A stretch of 64,000 bases of DNA, from contig NZ_QLNP01000062.1 of the NCBI RefSeq assembly GCF_003261175.1, positions 62,001-126,000 of the forward strand, written 5' to 3'. Shown in pieces: positions 32,163 through 60,434 of this stretch. The notes beneath the pieces were generated by a model. That model made no database searches and was not told the DNA's origin. It saw nothing but the letters and a program-made list of their open reading frames with translations. The DNA is from Arthrobacter globiformis. GTDB lineage: Bacteria > Actinomycetota > Actinomycetes > Actinomycetales > Micrococcaceae. Each line of letters begins with the position of its first letter. Within the stretch, counting starts at the first letter, position 1. The translations under genes were made by a program, and so were the position numbers.

Positions 32163-33950
32163 TTACGAGCTGACGTCTCGGCCATCAATCTCGTCAGCGA
32201 CAAAGGCTGTTCCGAGGGCCTTGATGAGACGGTTCCTAATCCTGGACTTCCGCTCCTCCACAAATAATGTGAAATGTTCCAGATCGAGGACAAGACCGTC
32301 CAAATCATTTTCCGCCAGGTACGTTGACCGTTTCTCATCGCTCGGGAACGCCCCTGCGACCCAGTTGGACGGCAGGGCATCCTGCTTTTCGATGTTGGCA
32401 ATACCTGCGAGCAATTGGAGGTTAGGCAGAAGGTTGACGGCGGCGAGGTACTCATCAATCTTGTCAGCGGCAATTCCGGCCTCGGCCAGCTTCTTACTCG
32501 TAAACCGAGACTTTGGGAAGATGTGGTCCTCGTGGAACTTTTTACTCAAATCGAGACCCGGGTAGAGCACCGACAGCACGGAAAAGGTTCGTTGTCCGGC
32601 ATACTTGAGATTTAGCAGCTCGTCAATTTCGGCTGCTTCGAAGGTCAGGCTTTTACCGGCCGCTGTCATTGCCGACTCAACAGCCGCAACCGGGAACACC
32701 GTGCTCGTGTTGGCTCGTAGGGCATCACGGACGCGAGTGAGCAGCGTGTCTAAGCCTGATCCCCAGATGCCCCGCTTCATCAGCGACCGGGTGACCCAGT
32801 GCTGGAGAACGAGACGGTCGGCCGCGTCGGCCCTGGAGTCGAGGTAGAAGTCCCCGGCGCCACGCAGGTGCAGGTAATGCGCGAGCGGGATAATTACGCT
32901 ATTGGCAGTGAGGTTGCGTTCGTTGTAGCCGAACTGTTGGAGCAGTATCGCCGCTCTCAAAAGTGAGCCCTTGATCTTTGGCCAGGCGGCCTCAACCTTA
33001 GCCATGTTCACTTGGGTGAAGTTGCTGACCTTGAACCGGACGTCTACATCGGCGATGGTCAACGCGGTCTTGAGGACGACGTCCTTGGAGAATGAGAACT
33101 GGCGACCAGCATTTCCGTTGAGGTCGCTGACAAGCGACCGCACCTCTTCACGGGCGTCGAGTTCCCGCCACTGGTTGGTGGCCATTGACAACAGCAGGTC
33201 CGAGTACGAGAGTGTGGTTCCGCCGCTGTTCACCCGCACGAAGATTTCCAGAACCTTGTCTGGGTCCTGATCAGTGACTAGGAAGTAGTTCATCGGTTTG
33301 AGGATGCGAACCGCGTCATAGAGGTCGAACATCCGCTGGAACGCATCCCCCGGCTTGGCGATGTTACGTCTTTCCAGCTCCTTCATGATCGCCGGGCCAG
33401 GATTAGCGAGGTCGAGCACCGCCCCAACACGGAACCACTTGTCCTCGCCGCTTTCCTCGCATGCAGCCTCACGGTCAGTAAGAAAGCGTAGGTCGTACTT
33501 AAGGCCTAGTTCCTCATCAGCGGGGTCGTCAACGAGGTTCAGGTAGAGCCGCTTGACGGGGAAGCCCTCGGGGCCGTTCCACCACGCGTACTTCTTCTTC
33601 TCAGCGAAGCTTCCGTAGAGGGCGATGTTCAACGAGGTCAGACGCTGCTGACCATCGAGCACTGCTGTGGTTCCGCTACCCGCTGGGACTGTGGCCTTGG
33701 TCGCGTATGGATTGTCGCGCTCGTGGTAATTCGTGAGGAACTCGTAAAACGTGTATGACTGGGCGGTCTCTGGCTCAGCTGCCCACAGCAGAAATGAACC
33801 AACTGGGTACCCGCGCATAAGACTGTCAACAAGCTTCGTGATCTGGCTAGCATCCCAGACGAATTCACGCTGGATCGCAGGCATGAGGTACTCATGCTTA
33901 TGGATGGCGGTGAGCATGTCCTCGATGCTTCGCGGTGTCTGGAACGACAT
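32163..33950 (-). CDS. DUF262/DUF1524 protein (GmrSD-related)
   Basis: A 595-residue protein with the DUF262 (ParB/Srx-like) domain in front: IQREFVWDASQI and the signature LDGQQRLTSL (Asp99). The C-terminal DUF1524 region has the HNH-like motif EDHIFPKS (His476), followed by NLLPNLQLL. The arrangement matches the GmrS plus GmrD parts of type IV restriction systems in one polypeptide; DUF262 hydrolyses nucleotides and the HNH part would cut DNA. GGGAG upstream of the ATG supports the start. It begins an accessory region with several defence-like genes. Confidence 0.87.
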   Translation of the reverse strand: MSFQTPRSIEDMLTAIHKHEYLMPAIQREFVWDASQITKLVDSLMRGYPVGSFLLWAAEPETAQSYTFYEFLTNYHERDNPYATKATVPAGSGTTAVLDGQQRLTSLNIALYGSFAEKKKYAWWNGPEGFPVKRLYLNLVDDPADEELGLKYDLRFLTDREAACEESGEDKWFRVGAVLDLANPGPAIMKELERRNIAKPGDAFQRMFDLYDAVRILKPMNYFLVTDQDPDKVLEIFVRVNSGGTTLSYSDLLLSMATNQWRELDAREEVRSLVSDLNGNAGRQFSFSKDVVLKTALTIADVDVRFKVSNFTQVNMAKVEAAWPKIKGSLLRAAILLQQFGYNERNLTANSVIIPLAHYLHLRGAGDFYLDSRADAADRLVLQHWVTRSLMKRGIWGSGLDTLLTRVRDALRANTSTVFPVAAVESAMTAAGKSLTFEAAEIDELLNLKYAGQRTFSVLSVLYPGLDLSKKFHEDHIFPKSRFTSKKLAEAGIAADKIDEYLAAVNLLPNLQLLAGIANIEKQDALPSNWVAGAFPSDEKRSTYLAENDLDGLVLDLEHFTLFVEERKSRIRNRLIKALGTAFVADEIDGRDVSS

Positions 33951-39326: not shown

Positions 39327-40769
39327 CTAGTGGGTTTCGCCCTTGGGGGCGGGGACGAAGAGGCTGACGATGAACGCGGCGGCGGTGATGCCCACCGAGA
39401 TCCAGAGGGCGGTGGCGTACCCGGCACTGGTCGCCTGGGCGGCGAACGGGGCAACAATCACGACGCCGAGGCTCGCCCCGATGCCGAAGGAGGCACCGTT
39501 GATGCTGGGCAGGGAAGCGGGTGCCTCCTTGGGCGAGAGCAGGACGGAGAGCCCGTTGATGGCGGTGAGGAAGAGGCCGTTGTAGAAGATGCCGAGTGCG
39601 GCGACGGCCACGATCACCGCGATCTGGTTGGAAGAGAACGCGGCGGCTGCCACGGCGCAGGCCAGACTCATCGCGGTGCCAGTGCGGAGGACCTTGATCC
39701 AGCCGCGGCGGCCGGCCAGCCAGCCGGCGAGCGGGGCGGCGAAGACGCCGATGAGTGCGGCCGGGGTGAGGAACAGCAGGGCGGAGAGGGACGGGCTGAG
39801 TCCGAAGCCGGAGCCCTTGTCCTGGCTGAGCAGCACCACGGTGAAGTTCATGACGGCGAAGATGCCGGCGAGGGTCAGAACGGTGCTGGCGATGACGGGC
39901 CACACCTGGCGGGAGCGCAGGTGGTGAACAGCGATGAGCGGGTGGCTGCGCCGATTCTCGATCATCCAGAAGGCGGCGAAGGACGCGATGGTGCCCGCCA
40001 GCAGGGCCAGGGTGCCGGGCGCGGTCCAGCCGGCGGCCGATCCGCCGGAGACGAAGTAGGTGATGAACACCAGGAACACCGAGAGCGAGCCCGCTCCCCA
40101 CCAGTCCATCGCGCCGCGGACGTGCTGCGGCCGGCCCTTCGGGACGGTCTTGAGGATGCAGCCGGCGGCGACGGCGGTGAGCACCAGGACAACGGTGAAG
40201 ATGGACCGGAAGCCGATGGTCTCGGACATCAGGCCGCCCACGTAGCCGTCCACTCCCCCGATGCCGCCGTTGATAGCGGCGATGATGCCCACGGAGGTGC
40301 CGAAGACGCGCGGCTGCAGGTTCTCGCTGAGCACGATGTAGGACAGCGCGAAGACGGCGCTGGACACGCCCTGCAGGAAGCGGCCGGCTATGAGCAGCGG
40401 CAGGGTGGGCGCGGCGATGCAAAGGATAGTGCCGGCGCCCATGATGGCCAGCACCAGCAGGAGCGCGGTGCGGCGGCCGATGAAGTCGCTCCACCGTCCG
40501 ATCACGGGCCCGGCGATGGCGCCGGCGAGGAAGAACATGGACTGCACGGGGGCGGCCGCCTCGGGGGCCTGGCCGAAGCTGGCGGCGATCTGCGGCAGCG
40601 CCGGGGTGACCATGCTGGCGTTGAGCTGGAAGGACAGTACGCCGAGCAGCAGCGTGGAGATGAGCAGGGCGGCGGGACGGCCGGCAAGTCTGTTCACATC
40701 AGTTTCGCTTTCGACGGCGGTGGGCGGCGAGGTGGTGGCGCTGGCTGGGGTGTTCACATCAAACTCCAT
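39327..40769 (-). CDS. MFS transporter, probable nucleoside carrier
   Basis: A 480-residue carrier. A hydrophilic N-terminal 30 residues is followed by about 14 hydrophobic segments (DHA2-like spread). The typical loop GRWSDFIGRRTALLL lies between segments two and three, and GRFLQGVSSAVFALSY marks segment five. It is the first gene of the leftward unit with nucleoside hydrolase, so nucleoside uptake is inferred; sequence alone would only say proton-coupled MFS. Confidence 0.88.
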   Translation of the reverse strand: MEFDVNTPASATTSPPTAVESETDVNRLAGRPAALLISTLLLGVLSFQLNASMVTPALPQIAASFGQAPEAAAPVQSMFFLAGAIAGPVIGRWSDFIGRRTALLLVLAIMGAGTILCIAAPTLPLLIAGRFLQGVSSAVFALSYIVLSENLQPRVFGTSVGIIAAINGGIGGVDGYVGGLMSETIGFRSIFTVVLVLTAVAAGCILKTVPKGRPQHVRGAMDWWGAGSLSVFLVFITYFVSGGSAAGWTAPGTLALLAGTIASFAAFWMIENRRSHPLIAVHHLRSRQVWPVIASTVLTLAGIFAVMNFTVVLLSQDKGSGFGLSPSLSALLFLTPAALIGVFAAPLAGWLAGRRGWIKVLRTGTAMSLACAVAAAAFSSNQIAVIVAVAALGIFYNGLFLTAINGLSVLLSPKEAPASLPSINGASFGIGASLGVVIVAPFAAQATSAGYATALWISVGITAAAFIVSLFVPAPKGETH

Positions 40770-42919: not shown

Positions 42920-43357
42920 CTACAGGCTACTGAAGTAGGCCTTCATCGCTTCTTTGCTAATGACACCGACACACCGCTCACCCTCGCGGGCACCATATGA
43001 TTCTCGAACGGCTCTCCACGGAGCACCCTTGTGCGACAGCTCGCTTAGCTGGAAGCCCGACATTTGCGAGTATGTATCCAAGACGCTACGCACAATGAGC
43101 TTTTGCTCAAGCTTCAACGCCTTTGGTTTCTCATGAGCCAACTCGCTCACGGAGCACCGGCCCCTGTGCTTCACGTAAAGCGGCGGAGACACCGGTCCAT
43201 TAGCCCATGCCTGGAAATCCTCTTCGAATAAAGGTTTGTCGTCCCAGGCCAAGGCCCAGCCTTGGCTGAAGTAACAAAGCTTCTGCAGCTTCATCGTGGA
43301 CATTTCCCCACGTTCCCGAAGAATAAAGGAAGCAACGTCGAGAATACTCACGGTCAT
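42920..43357 (-). CDS. Panacea-domain (DUF4065/SocA-like) protein, antitoxin candidate
   Basis: A 145-residue protein covering the whole Panacea domain: MKLQKLCYFSQGWALAW, the central EDFQAWANGPVSPPLY motif and the C-terminal ELSHKGAPWRAVRE. Such proteins (GepA, SocA) act as antitoxins or proteolysis adaptors and sit beside varied toxins. An AAAGGAGA ribosome site precedes the ATG. It lies 88 bases downstream of the 43446-44339 gene on the same strand, so the larger gene is the natural candidate partner. Confidence 0.87.
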   Translation of the reverse strand: MTVSILDVASFILRERGEMSTMKLQKLCYFSQGWALAWDDKPLFEEDFQAWANGPVSPPLYVKHRGRCSVSELAHEKPKALKLEQKLIVRSVLDTYSQMSGFQLSELSHKGAPWRAVRESYGAREGERCVGVISKEAMKAYFSSL

Positions 43358-44651: not shown

Positions 44652-46067
44652 TCAGGGAAGGTCAGGTTCCGTATCCTCCAGATCAAGCAAAGATGTCTGC
44701 TCTGGGTGCAATCCCTTGCTCGGGTTGGCGGTGACGTCATTTGTCGCCGCGGCCTTGGGTCTCGAAGCGGACGACGGCGGTGCAATTCTTCTGTCGATGA
44801 CCGGTTCGTTCGTACGAAGGCTTCGGTACGAACCAATGTGGTCGAGGTGGCCCGATACATGCCGGCCCGCAATGGTGCCAAGGCAGCGAAGCGCCACGGA
44901 CATCAGCCCGTGGTGCTCGGTAGAAAAGAGATGTGCGAAAGCAGGGGCCTTCCACGCGTCACCGCCCAGCGCCGCGTCAAAGCAAACAAGCTCAGCGGTC
45001 TGAAGAAGTTCCCGTGCCACGACAGGGTTGGCGCGAAGACGCTCCACGAAGTCCACATAGTCGTTGAGGTAAGCCGGAGGCTCGGAAATTATTTGCCGCA
45101 GCGAAGGATATGGGGCCCGCAATGGTTCTGCGCCTGCCTCGATGTACCTACGGTGGGTTCGTTCTTGGATGTGGCCGACCAGCGCGTCCGCGCGTTCTAG
45201 TAGCGGTAGAAGATATAGGTCGTCAGCGTTTCCTACGGTTAAGGCACGTCCAAGCCGCTCGAGTAGCGTGGCGGAAGGGATTTCATCTAAGCGCCCGGCA
45301 TCCTGTACGGCCGCGAGGATAACTGCAATCAAGGCATGCGAAGATAGCACGGTAGCCGCCGGTTCCGGAATGCCTCCCTGGCGCTCAGCAGCTTTGCCAA
45401 AGGCTTCGACAGCAGACAAAAGAGCCGGGGAATCGGCCATGAGTCCCCCACCTCTAAGGAACTTTGTCACCGCTACTGGCAAGTCAGGAAGCCCTTTGAG
45501 TTGCGTGTCCGTCCTTGCCTCTGCGGCCAAGCAGGCGGCGCCGTCCAGATGTGCAAATCGTTCAGGTAACCAGGCATGGGCCCGTTCGCGAGTGGAAAGT
45601 GAAGCCTCGTCGAGAACAGCGATACCAAGTTTTCGGGCCACAGCGCGACCCCGCGAACTCACGGTCTGTCGAACCAAAGTAACTCGGTCGAGGGCCAGAA
45701 GTTGGCGGAAACCTGCTAACCAAACGAGTGTGTAGGGCTCCCCGCTTTGCCCCCTGCCGCTCTTGCACTCAAGACTCGACCTAGTTGAACGCAAGCGCGA
45801 ATCGACGTCGATCGAAAGGATGTCGATGTCCGTAAGCACATCCCGCCCCTGTTCCGCCCCGTCTGCGGAAACGGGGACACGAAGGCGAACGAAGGCACCT
45901 TCTGCGAACTCCAGCCGTGCAACCCGTCGTTCAAAGACGCCGCCTTCTGTATCCTCCGGCCCTGTTCCCGGCTTGGGATCAGCACGTCGGCGTGTTTTTG
46001 GCTTCGCTCCACCCGCTGTGGACGACGAGGATTTACCAGCTTGAGCTTCACTTTTTTCCGGCGTCAC
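44652..46067 (-). CDS. Putative PD-(D/E)XK-type nuclease, 471 residues
   Basis: From a GTG overlapping the upstream stop (GTGA). A disordered, basic N-terminus (1-40) precedes a region with the restriction-like core: Glu about 46-56, Asp80/Asp82 in TDIDILSID, and E-x-K at Glu100-Lys102 (SLECKSGRG). TLVRQTVSSRGRAVARKLGIAVLDE then fits the following helix and strand of such folds. The remaining 300 residues are mostly helical and unrecognised. The last 60 are Ser/Pro-rich. It is coupled to the 46064-47353 gene, so both products likely work together, plausibly in defence. Nuclease assignment rests on motif spacing only. Confidence 0.6.
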   Translation of the reverse strand: MTPEKSEAQAGKSSSSTAGGAKPKTRRRADPKPGTGPEDTEGGVFERRVARLEFAEGAFVRLRVPVSADGAEQGRDVLTDIDILSIDVDSRLRSTRSSLECKSGRGQSGEPYTLVWLAGFRQLLALDRVTLVRQTVSSRGRAVARKLGIAVLDEASLSTRERAHAWLPERFAHLDGAACLAAEARTDTQLKGLPDLPVAVTKFLRGGGLMADSPALLSAVEAFGKAAERQGGIPEPAATVLSSHALIAVILAAVQDAGRLDEIPSATLLERLGRALTVGNADDLYLLPLLERADALVGHIQERTHRRYIEAGAEPLRAPYPSLRQIISEPPAYLNDYVDFVERLRANPVVARELLQTAELVCFDAALGGDAWKAPAFAHLFSTEHHGLMSVALRCLGTIAGRHVSGHLDHIGSYRSLRTNEPVIDRRIAPPSSASRPKAAATNDVTANPSKGLHPEQTSLLDLEDTEPDLP

Positions 46068-47353
46068 TGTACTTGTCCCATGCTGCGCCGAGCCGGGACT
46101 TCACGAAGCGCAGCAATGAGACGTGCTTCCTCCGCCTGATCACGGTCGGTCGTAAGGGCAATCTTGGCGCGCTCGCGATCTACGTGCACATAGGAGCGCT
46201 GTCCCTCGAGGGAGGCGGCATTGTGTCCACCCGATCCCGAGGCCTCGCGGGCAGTGAGCACCTTCAAGGCGTCTTCTGCGACGTCAGTCTGCAGCAGTTC
46301 CAGTTGGTACCGATTCGATGAATGTCCATCTACGACTCGAACAATCCCTGCCTTCTCAAGCATCGGATAATCGGTACCAATCGATGAGGCGTTCCCTGCG
46401 ATCCCGCGATTAATGAGTGCGCGCAAGAACACAGCGGGGTCTCGGAGCCGGTATGCCGCGAAGGTAGCTGCATAAATCATGGATCCAACGAGTTGTCGTA
46501 CCTGGCCAGAGGCGTCCCCAGCAGTTCCTCCAAACGGATCGCGGCCTAGGTGTGGCGTAAATAGGAACCCTCGCTCCTGCCCTTCCGATGTCTGAATCAC
46601 TGATCGCTGGACCAGACCCTGCGATACGGCAAAGTTGATCCATTTTTTCTCAGTCGAGGTCACTTGGCTCTCAGGCATGCCAGGATTAGTCGCCAACTCC
46701 TCCAGTAGCGCGCCAACTTCTTTGGTGCCATGGGCATCGGCAGCCTTTAGTGCCGACCGGATAACTGCGTCACCCTGCGTCCAAACGTTCGGGTTGTATA
46801 GGACCGTTCGACCGTCGTCGGCCAACACTTCCCGAACCAAGCCGGTGTGCATCAGATGCCGAACTGCATCTTCAGCGGTCTCGGGCAATGAACTAACACC
46901 CTCCGCTGCGTAGGCCGCATCCAAAACATCTGTCATCACGAGGGGCTGGATCGTGGTTGCTCGCAAGACTGCTAGGGCAGCACGTTCCATTGGCCCTGCC
47001 ATCAGCACGTTGAGCACCCTTTCAGAAGCGGCGACCAAGTCATTAGGCGCGGGAATCGTCTCCACGACGGCAGTTGCTTCTCCCTTGGCATCCCGGTGAA
47101 CATCGACCCAGCCGAGCGCTTCAAGGGTCTTCACAACGTCGGCCAACGAGCGCTTCCCGAGCCCGACATCCAAGCCAATAGCTCGGACACGCGCAGGGCT
47201 ACTCGTAGTGCTGCCTCGCAGCCTAAAGGAAACATCAAAAACCCAGCCGGCGAACTCCAACTGCTCGAGGGCAGCCCGTTCCGGTCCCATCTGGTAAGCC
47301 GCTAGGTGCCGAGACAAGCCAAGCACGAGCTCGGTGTCTGTCAGGATCGGCAT
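46064..47353 (-). CDS. Unknown protein with winged-helix-like segments, coupled to the nuclease-like gene
   Basis: A 429-residue protein of unknown family. Several segments read like winged-helix units: KRSLADVVKTLEALGWVDVHR, AVRHLMHTGLVREVL with DDGRTVLYN, EKKWINFAVSQGLVQRSV, and NASSIGTDYPMLEKAGIVRVV. This suggests tandem DNA-binding or protein-interaction wings. It starts at an ATG at 47353 and its stop overlaps the GTG start of the nuclease-like gene, so production of the two is tied. Role inferred: recognition or regulation partner of the nuclease-like protein. Confidence 0.6.
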   Translation of the reverse strand: MPILTDTELVLGLSRHLAAYQMGPERAALEQLEFAGWVFDVSFRLRGSTTSSPARVRAIGLDVGLGKRSLADVVKTLEALGWVDVHRDAKGEATAVVETIPAPNDLVAASERVLNVLMAGPMERAALAVLRATTIQPLVMTDVLDAAYAAEGVSSLPETAEDAVRHLMHTGLVREVLADDGRTVLYNPNVWTQGDAVIRSALKAADAHGTKEVGALLEELATNPGMPESQVTSTEKKWINFAVSQGLVQRSVIQTSEGQERGFLFTPHLGRDPFGGTAGDASGQVRQLVGSMIYAATFAAYRLRDPAVFLRALINRGIAGNASSIGTDYPMLEKAGIVRVVDGHSSNRYQLELLQTDVAEDALKVLTAREASGSGGHNAASLEGQRSYVHVDRERAKIALTTDRDQAEEARLIAALREVPARRSMGQVQ

Positions 47354-47511: not shown

Positions 47512-48204
47512 TCAACCCCGGCCGGTCGCAAGCTTAAAGATGGCCTTCTCAACTTGTACTCGACTTCGTCCATACGGCTGACCCCAGCAAGCCAGCAGGT
47601 CCAGGTACTTTGCGTATGAAGCAGTTTTCTTATCTAACAGAACGCTCGCCTCGTTCGCGAGCCATCCGGCAATTTTGTCGTCGAGTATTGGGGCGGCTTT
47701 CGGGTCGTCTGGACTTTCCTGTGCGGATACGAAGTACAACCACTTTGTGAAGTATGAACGTCCGAAGTGCTTGATAGCCCCTTCGTTGTTCAGGAGCCGG
47801 TAGGCCTCTTCAGCTCCGGCTTGGCGCGCCGACTGGACCGCATCCTCGAGCCGATCACTCACGGATGGAAGGACAGGGAGCGATGCTGGAGGGACGCTCC
47901 GGTCAACAGTCTCGGTAAGAATCCAACGCGTTCGAAGCGCGCCCCGGCCCGATGTCGTACCCCAGCCCCACACCATGGCCGGAACGAATGCGGACAACAC
48001 CCGTCCAGAGGTAAGTTCGGACATCGCCGCTTCCCGGATCGTCTGACGGTCAACCCTGTCTGGAAGTTGTCCCAAGATTGCGAGCACCTCGGGCCTGTCG
48101 TGCATCTGCTCAAGCCATGGTTGCCGTATCCAGGGAAAGGACTCTTGCGGAGTCGGCTCATCTTCGAGGAGGGCGATAAGCGCCGAAGGTATACCTGTCG
48201 TCAT
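47512..48204 (-). CDS. Putative OGG-fold (8-oxoguanine glycosylase-like) protein
   Basis: A 230-residue protein. The stretch IKHFGRSYFTKWLYF (about residues 145-159) and the C-terminal ASYAKYLDLLACWGQPYGRSRVQVEKAIF resemble, from memory, the bacterial family annotated as OGG-fold proteins, often found near defence genes. The early GWGTTSGRGALRTRWIL segment fits the same family. It is 158 bases upstream of the 46064-47353 gene on the same strand, so it may head that transcript. No catalytic Lys/Asp pair could be assigned with confidence. Confidence 0.5.
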   Translation of the reverse strand: MTTGIPSALIALLEDEPTPQESFPWIRQPWLEQMHDRPEVLAILGQLPDRVDRQTIREAAMSELTSGRVLSAFVPAMVWGWGTTSGRGALRTRWILTETVDRSVPPASLPVLPSVSDRLEDAVQSARQAGAEEAYRLLNNEGAIKHFGRSYFTKWLYFVSAQESPDDPKAAPILDDKIAGWLANEASVLLDKKTASYAKYLDLLACWGQPYGRSRVQVEKAIFKLATGRG

Positions 48205-48445
48205 AATGCCATCCTCTGTCGTCTAGGCCTGACTCCACGTCAGCGCCACGGACCTGTCTTAGCATGTCCTCCTGGCCCCACGACTACCTGATGCAGTCCG
48301 AAGCAAGCAACCACGGGTTTGAAGGGACCGGGCCTTGGCATTTGGCATGAGGCTGCACCCACCAAGGTGATACCAGTGAAGCGCACCAGAACGAACCTGA
48401 TTTCGCAGGGTTCACGCTGACCTTTGACATACGTGAAGAAACCAA

Positions 48446-48490
48446 AGAACCCCGCCCCTCCCTTGTAATTACTGGGAACAACGGGGTTCT
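48446..48490 (-). terminator. Terminator following a tRNA 3' half
   Basis: AGAACCCCG (48446-48454) pairs with CGGGGTTCT (48482-48490). On the minus strand the stem is followed by TTTGGTTTCTT. Its position three bases past the CCA end is what is expected for a tRNA gene terminator. Confidence 0.65.
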
Positions 48491-48493
48491 AGC

Positions 48494-48543
48494 TGGTGGC
48501 TCCGACCGGCGTCGAGCCGGTGAACTTTCGATTTTAAGTCGAA
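48494..48543 (-). pseudogene. tRNA 3' half (anticodon arm to CCA; anticodon UAA), probable attachment site
   Basis: Read on the minus strand: anticodon stem TTCGA/TCGAA around loop CTTAAAA (anticodon UAA), a 5-base variable loop, T stem ACCGG/CCGGT around CTCGACG, acceptor strand CGGAGCC, then ACCA. The matching acceptor 5' strand and D arm are absent in normal position, so this is not a working tRNA. Integrases often recombine in tRNA 3' halves and leave such copies. A UAA anticodon implies leucine, yet the long variable arm of tRNA-Leu is missing. Confidence 0.6.
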
Positions 48544-48737
48544 CGCCGAAGTCCAGCCACACCCTAGACGTGGAGCGGAGGCCTGCTCTTACCGGAGGCG
48601 TACCAAAAGTCCGCAGTAATTCCGGGCCAATCAACGGCGCGTCTTACCCGGCAACTGCGCCGAAGAAGTCGTCCTCAAAGAGTTCGTTAAACCATGGCAA
48701 TCAACACGGACGAGCACTAATTTTCGTCCTTGGGCGG

Positions 48738-49838
48738 CTAGTTCACGAGTCGCAGCGTAGCCCTAGATTTCTGGCCACCGCCTTCGCCTTCAACGACCAG
48801 GGGAACCAGCCCAAACATGTGCGCGTTGAGTTCCTTTACTTCCAAGTGGACCTCATTAGCAACGTCGGCGGGAGAAATGCCATCGGCTCTCAGTGCCGAA
48901 AGTATCTTCCGGAGGACCTGAGAAGTTTCGGGAACGGTGGCGTTCTGAGGCTCGCCCCTTCTGTACCCGGACCGCGAGAGCTGTATGCACAGGTCCCGGT
49001 AACCCCATTCCGTCACCATCTCCAGTTCTCTGAGACGGTGAGCCAAGGCCATCGCAGCCACGCGCCAGCGCTTCTTCGCCGTGATGACGGTTTGAGCTCC
49101 GACATTCCACAGTGGTAACGACATGACATCCTCCCTCGGCATCAGAAAGGCCGCCGCGAATCGATGGGCTTGCGCTTCCGCTTCCCGCCCTGACGGCGGA
49201 TTCTCCTCAGCGTGGAGAACCAAGTGTCCAAGTTCGTGGGCGGCGTCAAACCGTTGCCGTTCACCGGACTTCGAGGTATTCATGAGGATGAACGGTGTCT
49301 TGTGCCGGAAGAAGCTGAACGCATCGATCTCCACCACGTCCATGGCTAAGCTGAAGACTCGGACGCCGTGTGCTTCCAAAACGTCCAGGAGATTTGGGAT
49401 AGGCGCTGTACCAAGGCCCCACTTCTCCCTGACCACTCGTGCAGCTGTCTCCGGATCGTAGCCGGAAAGCGTGGGCAGTTCTGGTGTCGGCAGTGCGAAT
49501 CGCTCGCCCATCCAGGTAGACATCACCACTGCTATCCTGCCAGCTGAGATTGCCGAATTTCTAAGCGCGGCCGATGTCTTGGACATGGCTCTAAAACTCA
49601 CCGCTGCCGTAGGAATCTCTTCAACGTCCGGCCCCGTGAAAAAGGCCACAGGGAAATTAAGCTCCTTTGCCAACTGATCCAGCGTCTCAGGTTGGGGCCC
49701 GCGCTCATCGGTTTCCCAACGGGTAACAGTCCTGGCGTTGACGTCGAGTTGCTGAGCGAGCCCTGAGCGGGTCAGTCCTCTGCGCTCACGCGCCAATGCA
49801 AGACGCGACGGGTTCCATCGTAGAGTGCTGGTGCTCAC
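48738..49838 (-). CDS. XRE-family HTH protein with ImmA/IrrE metallopeptidase domain
   Basis: A 366-residue fusion. An N-terminal lambda-repressor-type HTH (about 13-65: ALARERRGLTRSGLAQQLDVNARTV) is followed by an ImmA/IrrE zinc peptidase domain with DAAHELGHLVLHA (His201, Glu202, His205) and downstream Glu in EAEAQAHRFAAAFLMP. The basic region after it may help DNA or partner binding. Such proteins cleave or relieve repressors in mobile elements and toxin-antitoxin-like modules. It starts at a GTG overlapping the upstream gene's stop (GTGA). Confidence 0.9.
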   Translation of the reverse strand: MSTSTLRWNPSRLALARERRGLTRSGLAQQLDVNARTVTRWETDERGPQPETLDQLAKELNFPVAFFTGPDVEEIPTAAVSFRAMSKTSAALRNSAISAGRIAVVMSTWMGERFALPTPELPTLSGYDPETAARVVREKWGLGTAPIPNLLDVLEAHGVRVFSLAMDVVEIDAFSFFRHKTPFILMNTSKSGERQRFDAAHELGHLVLHAEENPPSGREAEAQAHRFAAAFLMPREDVMSLPLWNVGAQTVITAKKRWRVAAMALAHRLRELEMVTEWGYRDLCIQLSRSGYRRGEPQNATVPETSQVLRKILSALRADGISPADVANEVHLEVKELNAHMFGLVPLVVEGEGGGQKSRATLRLVN

Positions 49839-50572
49839 AACCGGCTCACGGGAATATCGATTTCTGCATCAGGCGTGTCAGGTTCGATCAAGTCGATGTC
49901 GATCGCTGCGCCGTCATTGGGAACGGGGTGGAGAATAATGCGTTCGTCCCAACCCGCAATTCGACCATGACCGTCGAATCCAATGGGCTTAGAAATCTCG
50001 CTGCGAATCTCGTGGGAGTTTACAAACACCATCAATGTCCAGAGCGAATATCCGGAGTAAGCATCGTTTGATTCCTGAGGAGTCCCAAGGCCGTACTCCG
50101 CGAAGTCAAACGCGCTCTGGTTGTTGTCGACAGCTGACCGCATCGCCACGCCCTTCGGGTACTTCGAGCGGGGATACTTCTTGAAGGTGAGATAAGGAAT
50201 GCCCGTGGCCTCGTCGCCACTCGTGACGACCAACACAATCCGACGATCATCGTTTACGAGACGGCAGATGTTCTGTTTGTCGTCGCGGCGCCATCCGCGT
50301 GGTCTGAGCACTTGTGACAAGGTATTGACCAATTCAAAGTAGCGCACCGAACCCGGCGACCCAGGGGGATAAAGCCCGCGGTCGAATTCCTGTGCGGCAT
50401 GATGAGCTCGCAACACTACTCGGTCTCGGATGTCCGATTCACTCAAGTCAAACGTGCGCAGCAACCTGTCTTCTACAGTTTCCGGCTGCCTTGCAGCGTA
50501 GAGTTCCATGGGGCTCCGCTCGTTCTTGATGTCCGTTTTTCGAACCTCGTATGAGGTAACAAAACCAGACAT
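49835..50572 (-). CDS. Unknown protein coupled to the ImmA/IrrE gene
   Basis: About 245 residues from the ATG at 50572; an ORF extension to 50728 has no coding character. It contains AHHAAQEFDRGLYPPGSPGSVRYFELVNTL, KQNICRLVNDDRRIVLVVTSGDEATG and YSGYSLWTLMVFVNSHEIRSEIS, suggesting a mixed alpha/beta fold, and ends in an acidic tail. No family recognised. The four-base overlap with the XRE-ImmA gene suggests a functional pair, with this protein as the possible regulated or toxic partner (inference). Confidence 0.65.
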   Translation of the reverse strand: MSGFVTSYEVRKTDIKNERSPMELYAARQPETVEDRLLRTFDLSESDIRDRVVLRAHHAAQEFDRGLYPPGSPGSVRYFELVNTLSQVLRPRGWRRDDKQNICRLVNDDRRIVLVVTSGDEATGIPYLTFKKYPRSKYPKGVAMRSAVDNNQSAFDFAEYGLGTPQESNDAYSGYSLWTLMVFVNSHEIRSEISKPIGFDGHGRIAGWDERIILHPVPNDGAAIDIDLIEPDTPDAEIDIPVSRL

Positions 50573-50940
50573 GGCCGTGCTTGTCCAATTCGCTGAGGCC
50601 CAGAGCCCTGCTTGAGATGTTTGTTTGGCGCGGCCGGCCGGTTGATCTTTACGCGTTTCATAGAAGGCGGGTGGGAAGATCGCGAAGCTACAGCCACCCG
50701 AGTTAGCTTGTCCCACCTCCCTCTTCACAGAAGCCCTCGGTCAGGCCGAGGTGGCCTCCACACCCACGCATACCTCGGAACGCTGGCGTATCGCCCGTCA
50801 GCGCCCCTACGCCCCAGTCGGGGAACGGCCGCGATTGTCTCAGAAACATCCACAAAACATCCACCTGCGGAGGAACCTGGGGGTCTTCAGAGGAATCCGA
50901 AGGATGGGAGCAATTCAGGCTCTGGCCGTCGAGACAGAAA

Positions 50941-50971
50941 AACCCCCGGAATCTCGCCGATTCCGGGGGTT
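50941..50971 (-). terminator. Strong terminator following a second tRNA 3' half
   Basis: A 13-bp perfect stem (50941-50953 with 50959-50971) with a 5-base loop and, on the minus strand, a T-rich run (the A-run at 50938-50942). It lies 8 bases past the 3' end of the tRNA-like sequence. Confidence 0.85.
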
Positions 50972-50978
50972 CGCTCTG

Positions 50979-51025
50979 TAGCGGTGGGGAGGCTCGATCT
51001 CCCGACCTCACGATTATGAGCCGTT
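50979..51025 (-). pseudogene. tRNA-Met-like 3' half (anticodon CAU), probable attachment site
   Basis: On the minus strand: loop CTCATAA (anticodon CAU) in a 4-bp stem, variable loop AGGTC, T stem GGGAG/CTCCC around ATCGAGC, and a 3' acceptor strand CACCGCT plus A. The upstream bases belong to the end of the helicase gene at 51040 and do not form a D arm, so no intact tRNA exists here. It resembles the scar left when an element integrates in tRNA-Met and duplicates its 3' part. Confidence 0.6.
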
Positions 51026-51039
51026 GGGTCCCTCGTGGT

Positions 51040-54000
51040 TTATTGTGCCACCGCAGCCGCAGTAGCGAACACATCCCCCGGCATTGGCCGGTGCAGCTTC
51101 CAGGTGATAGCAATGGGCTTCTCCCCTGAGTGCTGGACATAGTCCACCTGCCCCAAGCACGTGTAGGGAACAGTCAGTCCTGTCTCGTCCTCGGCGGTAT
51201 CCCGTGTGAATAGCAGGATGTGCGACTCGTGCTTCAGCCTTTCCAAGTACCGCTTGCCCGTCGGGCTGCTCGGCGAAGTTGCATTCTGCGACTCCCAGTG
51301 GAACAGCTCGCGGCTGATGGCATAGTCCTTGTACATCGTGCTGGCGGAATGGTTTTTGTCGTCCTTGTTGAGGGTCACAAAGAACGCGTCTGTAGCCGTT
51401 GCCGGGCACCAGGCCACGCCTTCACGGTGCTTAACGTTCTTTCCCAGCTCCAGTGATCCGTACTGCAGAGCGGCAAGAACCTCCTCCCGCCGGTACGTGG
51501 CGTGGGTGAGCACCGGGATGTGCTGCAAGCCCGCGCCCAGACCCTTCGCGGCATGTCTGGACTTTGCCACTCCGAGCTTGACGAGCTGGCGGATCTCGCC
51601 GCAGACAAACTGGTACCCGCGCAGATAGTCCAGGCCGGCGTCGTACGACCCAAAACCACCACCGTCGTCCCACAGCGTGTAAAACAGCATGCGGGCGAAG
51701 GTCTGCTCTCGTCGGCCGAGCTCCCCGTAGCCTGGTGCGCCCGGGCTGACGAGCATGGCGTAGGCCTCCGCCCGTTCCAGGTCATCAACGTGAATTAGTG
51801 CCGCCATCCGGGCGAGCAGTCTCTTCTCATCGTCATCCGACAGATCATGGATTTTTCCGCTGAGGACTGTTTCGAGCGGCGAATATCCCTCGATCAGCTC
51901 GGTCTGACGAAGGTACCCGGTCCAGGAGTCCTTCGTGGAACGGTAGATGGATTTCAGCTCGCTGCCTGACTTCTCCAGGTACGCTTCCAGGTCCGTTTCC
52001 CCGTACGAGGCTATGTCCTGCACCAGCTGGGCTCGGTTAACCTTCAGCTGTGCTTTGATGTTCTCCAGCACCACGTTCTGCGCCACCCGGTCCAGCACGA
52101 TCTGCGAGCCGGACGGAAGGAACGGAAACTCGTCCTCCACTGCTTTCTCCAGCTCCTTGCGGCCATAGCCGGTCAGGGCGCGGTACCTCAGGTCGAAACG
52201 GAACTCCCGGCGCTGCTGGCCAATGAAGTCCAGCACCGTGAGCACGGACTTGTTCGAAGCCCTGCGCAGCCCCCGGCCCAACTGCTGAAGAAAAATCGTG
52301 GCGCTTTGCGTGGGCCGGAGCAGCAGTATGGTGTCCACCTCGGGCAGGTCCAGGCCCTCGTTAAACAGGTCCACGGCGAAGATGCAGTTGATCTCGCGGG
52401 ACCGCAGCCGTTGCAGCGCGAGGGCGCGTTCGGCGTCGTCCGTTTTGCCCGAAACCGCAACGGAGGCTATCCCCGCCCGATTGAAGACCTCGGCCATGTA
52501 GACGGCGTGCTGCACGGAGACGCAGAAGCCAATGGCCCGCATCTCGGCCGTGCCGGTGACCTTGTCCCGCAGCTCCCGGATCACCTTTCCCGCGCGTGCC
52601 TCGTTGCCGGTGTAGAGGGCGTCGAGCTGGCCGACGTCATAACTGCCGCGCTTCCACTCCAGGCGGCTGAGGTCGACGTCGTCTGAAACCCCGAAGTAGT
52701 GAAAGGGCACGAGCAGATCTGCGTCGAGAGCATCCCACAGCCGGAGCTCGCTGGCCCGCCGCCCATCAAAAAACTGCTTGGCGACATCGACGCCGTCGCC
52801 GCGCTCAGGAGTAGCCGTCAGGCCGAGAAGTTCCTCCGGCTGGAGGTGGTCTATGAGGCTCCGGTAGGTGGGTGCCTGGGCGTGGTGGAACTCATCGATG
52901 ACGACGACGTCAAAGTCCTCAGGCTTGATCTTGTCGATGCCCATCGCGGCGAGGGACTGGACGCTGGCGAAAACGTGCTGCCAGTCCTTTGGTTTGTGCT
53001 CGCCGACGAACAATTCTCCAAAGGAACCCTTCTGCAGCACGTCACGGTAGGTGCGCAGCGATTGTTTGAGGATCTCCTGCCTGTGTGCCACGAAGAGCAG
53101 GTTCAGCTCCCTGCCCGCCGCTTCGCACAGTCGCTTGTAGTCCAGGGCTGCGATGACCGTCTTGCCGGTACCGGTGGCGGCGACGAGCAGGTTGCGGTGG
53201 TGGCCCTTGTCGCGTTCCGCTTCGAGGTCTTCGAGCATCTCAACCTGGTGGAGAAAGGGCTCGACCTCCAGGCCAGTTGCCGCATCCGGTGCAGCTGTGA
53301 GTCTGCCGCCGTTCCGGGCAAGCGCGGCGTCCAGCCTGTCGGCGTCCCGGTCCGGGTCATAGCTGTGGAAGGCGCGCTGTTCCCAGTAACTGTCGAAGGT
53401 GACCTCGAACTTCTTCAACAGCTCTGGTGTGGCGACAGAGCTGAGGCGGACGTTCCATTCCAGCCCATCCAGAAGGGCGGCGCTGCTCAAATTGGAGCTG
53501 CCAACGTAAGCCGTGTGGAAGCCTGAGTTACGGCGGAACAGCCAGGCCTTGGCGTGCAGGCGGGTTGAGTGACTTTCGTAGCTGATCTTCACCTCCGCGC
53601 CGTACCGCTGGACCAAGTGGTCGATCGCCCGGCGTTCTGTGGCGCCCATGTAGGTGGTGGTGATGACGCGGAGCCTGACGCCGCGGTCCTTCAGCTGTTC
53701 CAGGGCTGGCTCAAGGAGCCTCAGCCCCGTCCAACGAATGAAGGCGCATAGCAGGTCGACGGTGTCTGCCGATTCGATCTCGGTACGGAGCTCAGCGGCG
53801 AGGTTCGGGTCGTCCTTGCTGTTGGTGAGCAGGGCTGAGTCTGACAGCGGCGTCGTAGGCCGGCGGAGTTGGCGGCGTTTGAGCGTGGTAGCACGGTGGA
53901 GGGAGTGGAGCTGCGTCGGGCCATCGGCGACCCGGTCTGCTGTGTCCAGTTCCTGGAGGAGACGGTTAGCCAGGGCAACTCGGTCTGCAGGCCTGGCTGC

Positions 54001-54195
54001 GGCGAGGGCCTGGCGGACAGCGTTGCCCACGTGCCGGGACAGGACGTCCGGAGTGTCTTCGTCAGCGAAATTTGCGAAGACTGGTTGCAGCCCTGAATCT
54101 GTGTTCAATAGATTGCCGAGTGCGTTCGTGTTGAGTAGCTCATACAGGCCCTCCGGCAGCTGCTCTGCTGCCCGTCCCCCGATAATGTTAGTCAC
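51040..54195 (-). CDS. PLD-like nuclease / DExH helicase / DUF3427 protein
   Basis: A 1051-residue multidomain protein starting at a GTG. A PLD-like domain (about 120-270) has the HxK motif RLHAKAWLF (His214, Lys216) and GSSNLSSAAL. Superfamily 2 helicase motifs follow: Walker A ATGTGKT (340-346), DEFH (434-437), LTATPERGDG, and motif VI LQQLGRGLRRA. The C-terminal about 300 residues match DUF3427 in position, with LHRPMPG near the end. It would translocate on DNA and cut or process it; relatives occur in defence islands. No partner gene overlaps it, so it may act alone. Confidence 0.9.
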   Translation of the reverse strand: MTNIIGGRAAEQLPEGLYELLNTNALGNLLNTDSGLQPVFANFADEDTPDVLSRHVGNAVRQALAAARPADRVALANRLLQELDTADRVADGPTQLHSLHRATTLKRRQLRRPTTPLSDSALLTNSKDDPNLAAELRTEIESADTVDLLCAFIRWTGLRLLEPALEQLKDRGVRLRVITTTYMGATERRAIDHLVQRYGAEVKISYESHSTRLHAKAWLFRRNSGFHTAYVGSSNLSSAALLDGLEWNVRLSSVATPELLKKFEVTFDSYWEQRAFHSYDPDRDADRLDAALARNGGRLTAAPDAATGLEVEPFLHQVEMLEDLEAERDKGHHRNLLVAATGTGKTVIAALDYKRLCEAAGRELNLLFVAHRQEILKQSLRTYRDVLQKGSFGELFVGEHKPKDWQHVFASVQSLAAMGIDKIKPEDFDVVVIDEFHHAQAPTYRSLIDHLQPEELLGLTATPERGDGVDVAKQFFDGRRASELRLWDALDADLLVPFHYFGVSDDVDLSRLEWKRGSYDVGQLDALYTGNEARAGKVIRELRDKVTGTAEMRAIGFCVSVQHAVYMAEVFNRAGIASVAVSGKTDDAERALALQRLRSREINCIFAVDLFNEGLDLPEVDTILLLRPTQSATIFLQQLGRGLRRASNKSVLTVLDFIGQQRREFRFDLRYRALTGYGRKELEKAVEDEFPFLPSGSQIVLDRVAQNVVLENIKAQLKVNRAQLVQDIASYGETDLEAYLEKSGSELKSIYRSTKDSWTGYLRQTELIEGYSPLETVLSGKIHDLSDDDEKRLLARMAALIHVDDLERAEAYAMLVSPGAPGYGELGRREQTFARMLFYTLWDDGGGFGSYDAGLDYLRGYQFVCGEIRQLVKLGVAKSRHAAKGLGAGLQHIPVLTHATYRREEVLAALQYGSLELGKNVKHREGVAWCPATATDAFFVTLNKDDKNHSASTMYKDYAISRELFHWESQNATSPSSPTGKRYLERLKHESHILLFTRDTAEDETGLTVPYTCLGQVDYVQHSGEKPIAITWKLHRPMPGDVFATAAAVAQ

Positions 54196-56869: not shown

Positions 56870-58103
56870 ATGTCTTCCGCCCTGCCCTTGCCTGCGCCCA
56901 AACGCTTCCCGCTCGCCGCGATGCTGGTCCTTGCCACCATCACGTTCACGGCCATCACCACCGAACTCATGCCGTCCCGCCTGCTGCCGCAGATCAGCGA
57001 AGGCCTGAAAGTCTCCGAGCCGGTGGCCGGCTACCTCGCCGCAGCCTACGCCGCAGTCATCGTGATCACCGTGATTCCGGCCGCCTGACTGCTGGCCAAG
57101 GTTCCTCGGAAGACCCTGCTCATCTCCCTCGTCCTCACCTTCGCGCTCAGCAACGTCCTGGTCGGGCTGGCACCCAGCTTCGCAGCGGCCATGGGCGCGC
57201 GGCTTGTCGGCGGCCTCGCGCACGGCCTGCTCTGGACCACCGTGGCGCCGTTCGTCTCGCGGGTGGTCCCGGCCGATAAAGTGGGCAAAGCCCTGGCCAT
57301 CGTCTTCAGCGGCAACAGCCTCGGCATGGCCATCGGTGCACCCGTGGGCTCCGCGCTCGGCACGCTCCTCGGCTGGCGCGTCCTTCCTCTTCTTGGCCGG
57401 CTTCGGCCTGCTCCTCACGGGCCTCGCCGCCTGGCTGCTGCCGCAGGTTCGCCGGGTCCCCGATTCCGTTCGCCCCTCGATGCGCAAGGCCATGGCCCAG
57501 CCGGGCGTAAAATCCATTGCCATCGCCTGGCCGCTGCTGGTCCTGGCCCACTTCGCGCTGTTCACCTACATCGCGCCGTTCATCCGCGAGGCCGGCCTGC
57601 CCGACTACGCCATCAGCCTCTCCCTCACCGTCCTCGGCGCCTCCGGCCTGATCGGCATCTGGATCGCCGGCATCACCGTGGACACCCGCCCCCGCCGTTC
57701 GCTGCTGATCACGACGGCGGCGATCGCCGTGGCGATGCTCCTCCTCCCGCTCGGCGGCGGAATCTTCCCGATCGCCATGGTGCTCATGACCGTCTGGGGC
57801 GCCGGCCTCGGCGCGATCGGCATCTTCAACCAGGCGGCCATCCTCCGCGCCGGCGGCGAATACCGCGACGCCGCCAACGGCCTCACCGGTCTGACCATCC
57901 AGCTCGGCATCACCATCGGCGCCCTCTACGGCTCCGCCGCCCTGGTCCTCGCCGGCCCGCTCATGGTTCCCGTCGCCGCGGCGTTGCCGGTCGCCGTCGC
58001 CCTTGCCATCACGCTGGCGGGCAAGCGGCACGCCTACCCCGCCGGCCCCAAAGAGCGGGGCTGGTCGGAGCCAAAAGCCGCGGAGCCGGTACTGCAGCAC
58101 TAA
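56870..58103 (+). pseudogene. MFS transporter pseudogene (in-frame stop and frameshift)
   Basis: The 5' part (MSSALPLPAPKRFPLAAMLV through VIVITVIPAA) ends at a TGA at 57086-57088. Coding then continues in the same frame (LLAKVPRKTLLISLVL, ARLVGGLAHGLLWTTV) and shifts frame near 57380 within GWR-ASFLFLAG, consistent with a 2-base deletion. The rest (LLLTGLAAWLLPQVRR to KRHAYPAGPKERGWSEPK) is open to 58103. Joined, it would be an about 410-residue 12-TM MFS exporter of the sugar-efflux type. Two independent lesions argue against sequencing error. Its 3' end is duplicated at 60185. Confidence 0.85.
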
Positions 58104-60129: not shown

Positions 60130-60184
60130 GGATGATGACGGGGAGGAGTTCCTAACCCTTCGAGCCGTACTTGGCCAGGAGCAT

Positions 60185-60434
60185 GAGCGAGTACCGGGAT
60201 GCCGCCAACGGCCTCACCGTCCTGACCATCCAGATCGGCATCACCGTCGGCGCCCTCTACGGCTCGGCCGCCCTGGTGCTGGCCGGCCCGCTCATGGTTC
60301 CCGTCGCGGCGGCGCTGCCGGCCGCCGTCGCCCTTGTCATTACACTCGCCGGTAAACGGCACGCCTACCCGGCTGGACCCAAGGAGCGCGGCTGGTCTGA
60401 GCCGAAACTCAGGGCGCCAGTCAGCCAGTACTAG
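60185..60434 (+). pseudogene. Duplicate 3' end of the MFS gene
   Basis: From EYRDAANGLTVLTIQIGI to the end (KRHAYPAGPKERGWSEPK) it repeats the last 80 residues of the MFS pseudogene at 57850-58090, at high identity but with scattered changes. No upstream MFS part is present, so it cannot be functional. The copies lie 2.3 kb apart in the same orientation. Confidence 0.85.

Follow-up and report, generated by a model that had tools for sequence, protein, structure and literature searches.

Probable stranded attachment-site halves of tRNA-Met and tRNA-Phe in a defence gene array of Arthrobacter globiformis

How do the 3' halves of two different tRNA genes come to lie among defence genes, on a contig that holds neither of the intact genes? 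The question is raised by a stretch of 64,000 nt (the window; G000:C29:62001-126000) on a 372-kb contig of the Arthrobacter globiformis draft genome (G000; 4.88 Mb, 88 contigs). On its minus strand the window carries a tRNA-Met and a tRNA-Phe 3' half, and a sequence-only reading of the same DNA had taken two such halves, without their 5' halves, for the scars of nested or tandem integrations at attachment (att) sites. We confirmed the halves at 48494-48546 and 50978-51024. Sequence comparison assigns them to the attachment-site halves of tyrosine-integrase elements, at which recombination is predicted, and it is likely that they are att cores of temperate phages or islands which now lie stranded in a defence array that has been shuffled. 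The halves and their adjoining sequences are:

50978-51024, minus strand: tRNA-Met(CAU) 3' half, from the 5' anticodon stem through the 3' acceptor strand, without the 5' half; putative orphan att core
48494-48546, minus strand: tRNA-Phe(GAA) 3' half with the anticodon changed from GAA to TAA, 94% identical to the intact tRNA-Phe; putative orphan att core
50940-50972, minus strand: intrinsic terminator of the Met half, 14-pair stem (terminator scan)
48444-48493, minus strand: degenerate terminator region of the Phe half; similarity with genome G189 runs to 48444
50844-50864, minus strand: direct repeat AAACATCCAC (read on the plus strand) with 11-bp spacing; possible integrase arm-type sites

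Both halves hold the anticodon arm, variable loop, T arm and 3' acceptor strand of a tRNA, the 5' half being missing, and each matches one intact gene in its own genome. The Met half is 98% identical to the intact tRNA-Met over 50 nt (E 4.4e-18; G000:C67:221224-221297 nearby), and the Phe half is 94% identical over 72 nt to the intact tRNA-Phe on contig C65 (E 6.6e-26); with such E-values the halves are not chance matches. The similarity begins at tRNA nt 24 (Phe) and nt 29 (Met), that is, in the anticodon arm, and runs to the 3' end. For the Phe half it extends 19 nt beyond the CCA into the native downstream sequence, 18 of the 19 being identical. When 48 distinct tRNA sequences from the genome were blasted against the window, only these two sites matched at E<0.05. 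The sequence-only reading was right about the Met(CAU) identity of one half. Its Leu(UAA) label for the other is ruled out: the closest genomic tRNA is Phe, with the real Leu(UAA) gene among the 48 compared, and the label arose because a single substitution makes the Phe anticodon read TAA. The genome search for intact parents that it proposed thus led to tRNA-Met (C67) and, in place of Leu(UAA), to tRNA-Phe (C65).

Neither half forms the complete cloverleaf of a functional tRNA, and ARAGORN found no tRNA gene in the window. The hundreds of calls made by ARAGORN at altered thresholds were noise and were discarded. With the Rfam tRNA model, the Phe half scored 24.2 bits (cut-off 29 bits) and was the sole one below the cut-off among 53 matches in the whole genome at E<=10; the Met half was not listed as a tRNA even at that E-value. 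The scan for full tRNA genes that had been suggested as a check therefore gave no match in the window that either program accepts. The sequence-only reading had also placed an intrinsic terminator after each half. This held for the Met half, whose strong 14-pair terminator resembles those after tRNA-Met copies in other genomes of the genus. The Phe-half terminator was missed by the terminator scan, and what is left, by eye, is a 9-bp stem with a long loop.

If the halves are att cores, they should be found as such in phages. The exact 34-nt Met 3' pattern occurs in 15 IMG/VR contigs, none of which has the 5' half; identity starts at tRNA nt 23-29, and 14 run into terminator-like sequence (by eye), the stretch of the fifteenth ending earlier. 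For Phe, the half stands alone in one of two IMG/VR contigs. In the Arthrobacter phages Kumotta and MargaretKali, the Met half lies about 360 bp from the annotated integrase. A Kumotta-type integrase was detected in 7 of the 15 Met contigs (one partial) and a distant one (28-29%) in 4, with none detected in the stretch examined of the remaining 4. The integrase of the IMG/VR Phe-half contig belongs to the same clade and is 47% identical to that of Kumotta, and MT835599 (an unverified record) combines a Phe half (92% over 50 nt) with an integrase of the Kumotta clade. One phage integrase clade therefore uses both the Met and the Phe core. When relatives of the Phe-phage integrase were sought with that single sequence, its own contig alone came up, and an alignment scan returned six. 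Of the 14 integrases placed in a tree, those of the two Phe users stand on different branches, but the rows are so few that shuffle tests show no clustering either way. A further target was seen in phage Hestia, which has a Kumotta-clade integrase: a 50-nt tRNA-Thr(CGU) 3' half (100%; L258 960-1009) lies about 1 kb from the first of its two annotated integrases.

The same halves also sit at element ends in the genus (the named relatives met in our searches were Arthrobacter). Of 14 same-genus genomes searched, 5 have a match to the tyrosine integrase family PF00589 at 147-161 bp upstream of a Met half (G126, G192, G138, G128 and G201, the match in G201 being weak and partial). In G143 the integrase match lies 2.3 kb from the Met half, and in G015 and G080 the integrase is near the intact tRNA-Met instead of a half. 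The window sequences thus have the two properties expected of att halves: they are the 3' part of a tRNA from the anticodon arm on, and phages that have an integrase use the same half as attP. Because such halves recur in phages, as attP cores close to an integrase, and also at the ends of elements in some genomes of the genus, we read those in the window as attachment-site halves. To this extent the interpretation as attachment scars stands; it does not extend to nested or tandem integration in place.

Why are a Met and a Phe half found together? Over the loci examined there are 17 Met halves besides that of the window, and in 4 of these (G062, G124, G189, G201) a Phe half follows 295-397 bp downstream on the same strand. 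The same arrangement, with the Phe half 272-341 bp downstream, is found at 4 of 28 intact tRNA-Met loci (G105, G153, G192, G201). The 28 include the intact locus of G000, counted as being without a Phe half, and exclude G059, in which the contig ends 113 nt on. These modules are partly homologous (G062 and G201 are 72.5% identical over 448 nt, cores included), and the linker in several loci contains a direct repeat with 11-bp spacing, perhaps the arm sites of an integrase. The module of G192 forms the left end of an interval of ~65 kb, at the right-hand Met half of which an integrase adjoins, and a type IIG restriction-modification gene lies about 0.7 kb past the Phe half. With the G153 linker as query, 6 of 207 genomes gave a match at E<=1e-6, G153 among them and G000 absent, so the module is rare and diverse. 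The Phe halves are 80-98% identical, that is, the halves decay. As a recurring module, then, a Met core, linker and Phe half circulates in the genus, and it would function as an element end. We attribute the co-occurrence of the two halves both to this circulating module and to the use of both cores by one integrase clade.

A likeness between the two cores is a weak candidate for the cause of the pairing. The Met and Phe anticodon arms are alike at 10 of 14 positions, and at least 14 other tRNA pairs are more alike, sharing 12 or more. An inner motif, CGACT...AATCG, is present in 3 of the 48 tRNAs (Phe, Met and Asn); it was derived from Met and Phe themselves.

The halves lie apart from the genes from which they derive. 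In this draft genome the intact tRNA-Met and tRNA-Phe are both on contigs other than that of the window. Synteny with relatives, G176 and G066 among them, is kept on both sides of the tRNA-Met locus, which has only about 1.7 kb of different sequence on its downstream side, and a simple integration at tRNA-Met in this genome is therefore not supported. Elsewhere in the genus, Met halves likewise lie far away from the intact tRNA-Met, if not on a different contig (G124, G062, G143, G189, G059); the positions of half and intact gene are 2.03 and 1.62 Mb in G124, 1.05 and 3.42 Mb in G062, and 0.39 and 3.54 Mb in G143. Several halves can occur in one array, as in the window and G189, yet away from the tRNA gene. 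Since a Met and a Phe half differ, those of the window cannot be the two ends of one element. As a separate observation, the sequence and terminator downstream of the intact tRNA-Met (G000:C67 after 221300; L077 1-1760) are unlike those of most relatives and resemble, by eye, those at the G057 tRNA-Met and the G128 half (L132); they are probably the remains of another element.

What do the halves separate? Twenty window proteins were scanned with Pfam, and PADLOC was used to detect defence systems. The order in the window is mREase_IV, Met half, RmrT-RmrA, Phe half, OGG and two unknown genes:

51040-54195, minus strand: mREase_IV, Type IV methyl-directed restriction enzyme (PLD, helicase, DUF3427); PADLOC E=0, 1109 bits; Pfam
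49835-50572, minus strand: RmrT-type toxin gene; PADLOC RmrT 1.1e-46; 77% amino acid identity to the Arthrobacter liuii locus
48738-49838, minus strand: RmrA-type antitoxin with XRE helix-turn-helix (HTH) and ImmA/IrrE (M78) protease domain; PADLOC RmrA 1.1e-142, Pfam M78 1.2e-24
47512-48204, minus strand: OGG-like DNA glycosylase, first gene past the Phe half; Pfam PF21790 8.4e-39
44652-47353, minus strand: two overlapping genes of 429 and 471 aa, unknown family; candidate defence operon

The stop codon of mREase_IV is 15 nt from the Met half. Between the halves there are only the XRE-ImmA gene and its coupled partner, in agreement with the sequence-only reading. An RmrA with an ImmA-type protease domain adjoins an RmrT toxin, and from this gene content the pair is predicted to be a toxin-antitoxin defence of the RosmerTA type (RmrTA). 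The RmrT reading frame probably begins at ATG 50572, where similarity to A. liuii begins; the longest open reading frame (ORF) starts at 50728. The two overlapping genes gave no Pfam match above the cut-off and no PADLOC match. Diverged homologues of them (28.6% and 33%) lie past the Phe half of G062.

The joints between halves and defence genes recur in relatives. A Met half follows mREase_IV in four genomes (G000, G062, G189 and A. liuii), RmrTA lies past a Met half in two (G000 and A. liuii), and OGG lies past a Phe half in three (G000, G189 and G124). In A. liuii the order is that of the window (mREase_IV, Met half, RmrTA) with other genes afterwards, and the Met half has decayed to 85% over 39 nt. 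The order in G189 is mREase_IV, Met half, linker, Phe half, OGG, Met half. Its first two halves are 334 nt apart without RmrTA, so that RmrTA in the window sits between two halves that are close together in G189; its two Met halves are about 1.4 kb apart. In G062, mREase_IV, Met half, linker and Phe half are followed by genes that include the 429/471-aa homologues, and in G124 the module of Met half, linker and Phe half precedes an OGG gene that is broken. The blocks of similarity between the window and A. liuii comprise mREase with the Met half (54207-50940) and RmrTA (50572-48737); with G189 they comprise the Phe half (48546-48444) and OGG (48216-47512), and homology with G189 stops at 50843, beside the repeat AAACATCCAC.

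These results suggest the following course of events. Temperate phages or integrative islands would have had tyrosine integrases whose recombination site was the anticodon arm in genes for tRNA-Met and tRNA-Phe. Elements of this sort bring a copy of the target's 3' half together with a terminator, and their integration thereby restores the tRNA. Their cargo beside the att cores may have consisted of mREase_IV, reaching to the Met half, of RmrTA past a Met half and of OGG past the Phe half. Such defence cargo would then have lost its integrase, stayed or moved, and been re-assorted by recombination, the halves being carried along as former element ends. The array in the window would be a relic at a site other than a tRNA gene.

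Several observations weigh against this reading. PF00589 has 7 matches in the genome at E<=0.001, and the 372-kb contig holds none of them (the search did not extend to serine recombinases), which bears out the earlier statement that no integrase gene is in the window. No phage stretch carried both halves, among 17 from IMG/VR and 2 from Arthrobacter phages. The linker of the window was not matched by the G153 linker at E<=1e-6, and a linker repeat, GTGGCTGTTAAATGGCTG, had no exact match in IMG/VR, so that search did not identify a carrier of the Met-Phe module. The RmrTA genes of A. liuii have no Phe half after them, the only trace being an 18-nt match on the opposite strand, and this locus is the one relative of RmrTA that was found, in a single scan covering close relatives among genome contigs. 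The same-genus loci were mostly picked via Met similarity, with three candidates scored per genome, so the fractions given above are biased and are not genus-wide rates. No tRNA half lies past the stop codon in 27 of the 30 best-scoring mREase_IV loci, the other 3 having a Met half, and a Met or Phe half is absent at 3 of 6 OGG-like loci (G140, G186, G188). The mREase_IV survey was based on C-terminal matches (90 in 88 of 207 genomes), of which the 30 best had their flanks checked; OGG homologues occur in 6 of 207 genomes, that of the window included. The association is thus not obligatory: it reflects a group of related arrays and is no general rule for the genes concerned. A fixed hotspot beside mREase_IV is not supported either, as few of 24 loci compared have either flank in common. 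Near the OGG homologue of G140 (L180 6889-6911) and G188 (L182 3503-3525) we noted a 23-nt tRNA-Leu(CAA) 3' end (100%), at distances of 3.3 kb and 1.7 kb, respectively, possibly an att site of the T-loop type.

The rival that survives best agrees on where the halves came from, and the disagreement is only over how the genes are moved today: homologous or illegitimate recombination would shuffle the defence genes, with the halves hitch-hiking as inert scars. The scarcity of common flanks among pairs of the 24 mREase_IV loci, also where there is no tRNA half, is what this predicts, as is the decay of the Met half in A. liuii and of the Phe halves. We consider it quite possible, if somewhat short of an even chance. 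It does not account for the order Met, linker, Phe recurring at intact tRNA-Met loci, nor for the module in the G192 and G201 intervals, each of which is closed by an integrase match together with a Met half. Recurrence at intact loci and in integrase-bounded intervals makes at least the origin of the module look site-specific.

A more active role of the halves is conceivable, in which integrases act in trans. Phage integrases of one clade would swap small integrase-less defence cassettes in and out at Met and Phe halves used as portable att sites, and the result would be an integron-like cassette array away from tRNA genes. The similarity blocks shared with A. liuii and G189 do stop close to gene ends or at halves; OGG in G189 lies between a Phe and a Met half, the two Met halves there being about 1.4 kb apart; and repeats with 11-bp spacing adjoin the Met half in several loci. 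We nevertheless regard this as unlikely. RmrTA in the window is without a matching att pair, having Met on one side and Phe on the other, and the A. liuii half, at 85%, is probably dead.

Still less probable is that nested insertions occurred in place at tRNA-Met and tRNA-Phe and were later separated by chromosomal rearrangement or hidden by assembly breaks. With a genome in 88 contigs such breaks are easily envisaged, and the terminator of the Met half is of the type found after tRNA-Met in relatives, the intact gene of G000 differing downstream. However, the synteny of the C67 locus on both sides, and the large distances between Met half and intact gene in G124, G062 and G143 as well, argue against it. 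Finally, the halves could be functional tRNA-like RNAs, such as decoys or sensors for neighbouring toxin or restriction systems, in line with Phe-half changes at unpaired positions (by eye) and a T arm kept in both, but this is hardly credible given their ordinary folding (z -1.48 and -1.52; a weak test, as an intact tRNA-Phe control gave -0.93 and no cloverleaf), the decay of the A. liuii half although its flanking genes are kept, and the 27 of 30 mREase_IV loci without a Met half.

The array belongs to a larger accessory region. Third-codon-position GC content (GC3) of genes at about 32-60 kb is mostly below that of the flanks, with exceptions such as 39327-40769 (crude ORF caller), and similarity to relatives on the left flank stops at window position 31.93 kb. 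The comparison with related strains that had been proposed to reveal an empty site yielded no clean one for the whole island, the left flank being common only up to that point. At the left edge of the region lies a GmrSD-like gene (PADLOC HEC-05; 32163-33950) and further into it a SocA/Panacea antitoxin-like gene (42920-43357). An ORF at 60171-60434 repeats the end of the major facilitator superfamily (MFS) gene at 57204-58103 (88% over 221 nt), a partial duplication around a small segment. Four plasmid matches to the halves were obtained: two intact tRNA-Phe clusters on very large replicons, one intact tRNA-Met and one Phe half. The clusters (tRNA-Glu-Asp-Phe) are on the 'plasmids' NZ_AP024649.1 and NZ_CP012477.1 (1.0 and 0.75 Mb), possibly chromids or mislabelled chromosome. 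The Phe half, a tRNA-Phe 3' fragment with terminator-like sequence (L118 8001-8036), is on a plasmid of Arthrobacter sp. YC-RL1 (NZ_CP013298.1, typed mobilizable), close to restriction-modification genes; its neighbours include a helicase gene, a GIY-YIG gene and a DNA methyltransferase, and an intact tRNA-Asp follows ~60 bp on.

The spread of defence genes would thus be connected with a footprint that can be recognised in the sequence: a phage attachment half left stranded. Met half, linker and Phe half may serve as a sequence signal for integrase-less defence cassettes that are overlooked by island finders requiring an integrase, and a contribution of phage integrases to the building of defence arrays in their hosts becomes testable. 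Defence arrays punctuated by tRNA halves were not described in the titles and abstract openings by which the literature was searched, most papers being unopened. The closest known systems are tRNA-targeted islands. As set out in an extract from the Islander work, a 3' tRNA fragment carried or displaced by the element marks the island end, and tandem arrays are known (PMC4383910). The tRNA 3' fragments of the window would be such end marks, of the anticodon-centred class found in islands and prophages. The window differs in that it combines two tRNA identities in one array and in that its fragments were not seen in an interval starting at their own intact tRNA gene. The Islander rule of an integrase between intact tRNA and fragment has no counterpart here either, as the contig, in this draft genome, holds no PF00589 match. 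With the temperate phages Kumotta and MargaretKali the window shares the same tRNA-Met 3' half, but it has defence genes beside the halves where the phages have their integrase; no phage family was found by Pfam among the 20 window proteins (PHROGs was not run). Cis-mobilizable elements (CIMEs) are integrase-less segments bounded by att sites and built by accretion, and they need a matching attL and attR. The segments of the window are similarly without integrase and bounded by att-type sites, but the two sites are Met and Phe and thus not a matching pair. As to the cargo, RmrA is described in an extract of the RosmerTA study as an ImmA-protease antitoxin, often with an HTH, beside a toxin gene; one validated member, with a membrane-active toxin, is encoded by the Gordonia phage Kita (PMC10440598). 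The predicted RmrA of the window likewise has an ImmA-type protease domain and an HTH and adjoins a toxin gene. The kind of arrangement, att halves derived from tRNA genes, is therefore known, and this particular arrangement of it is unusual.

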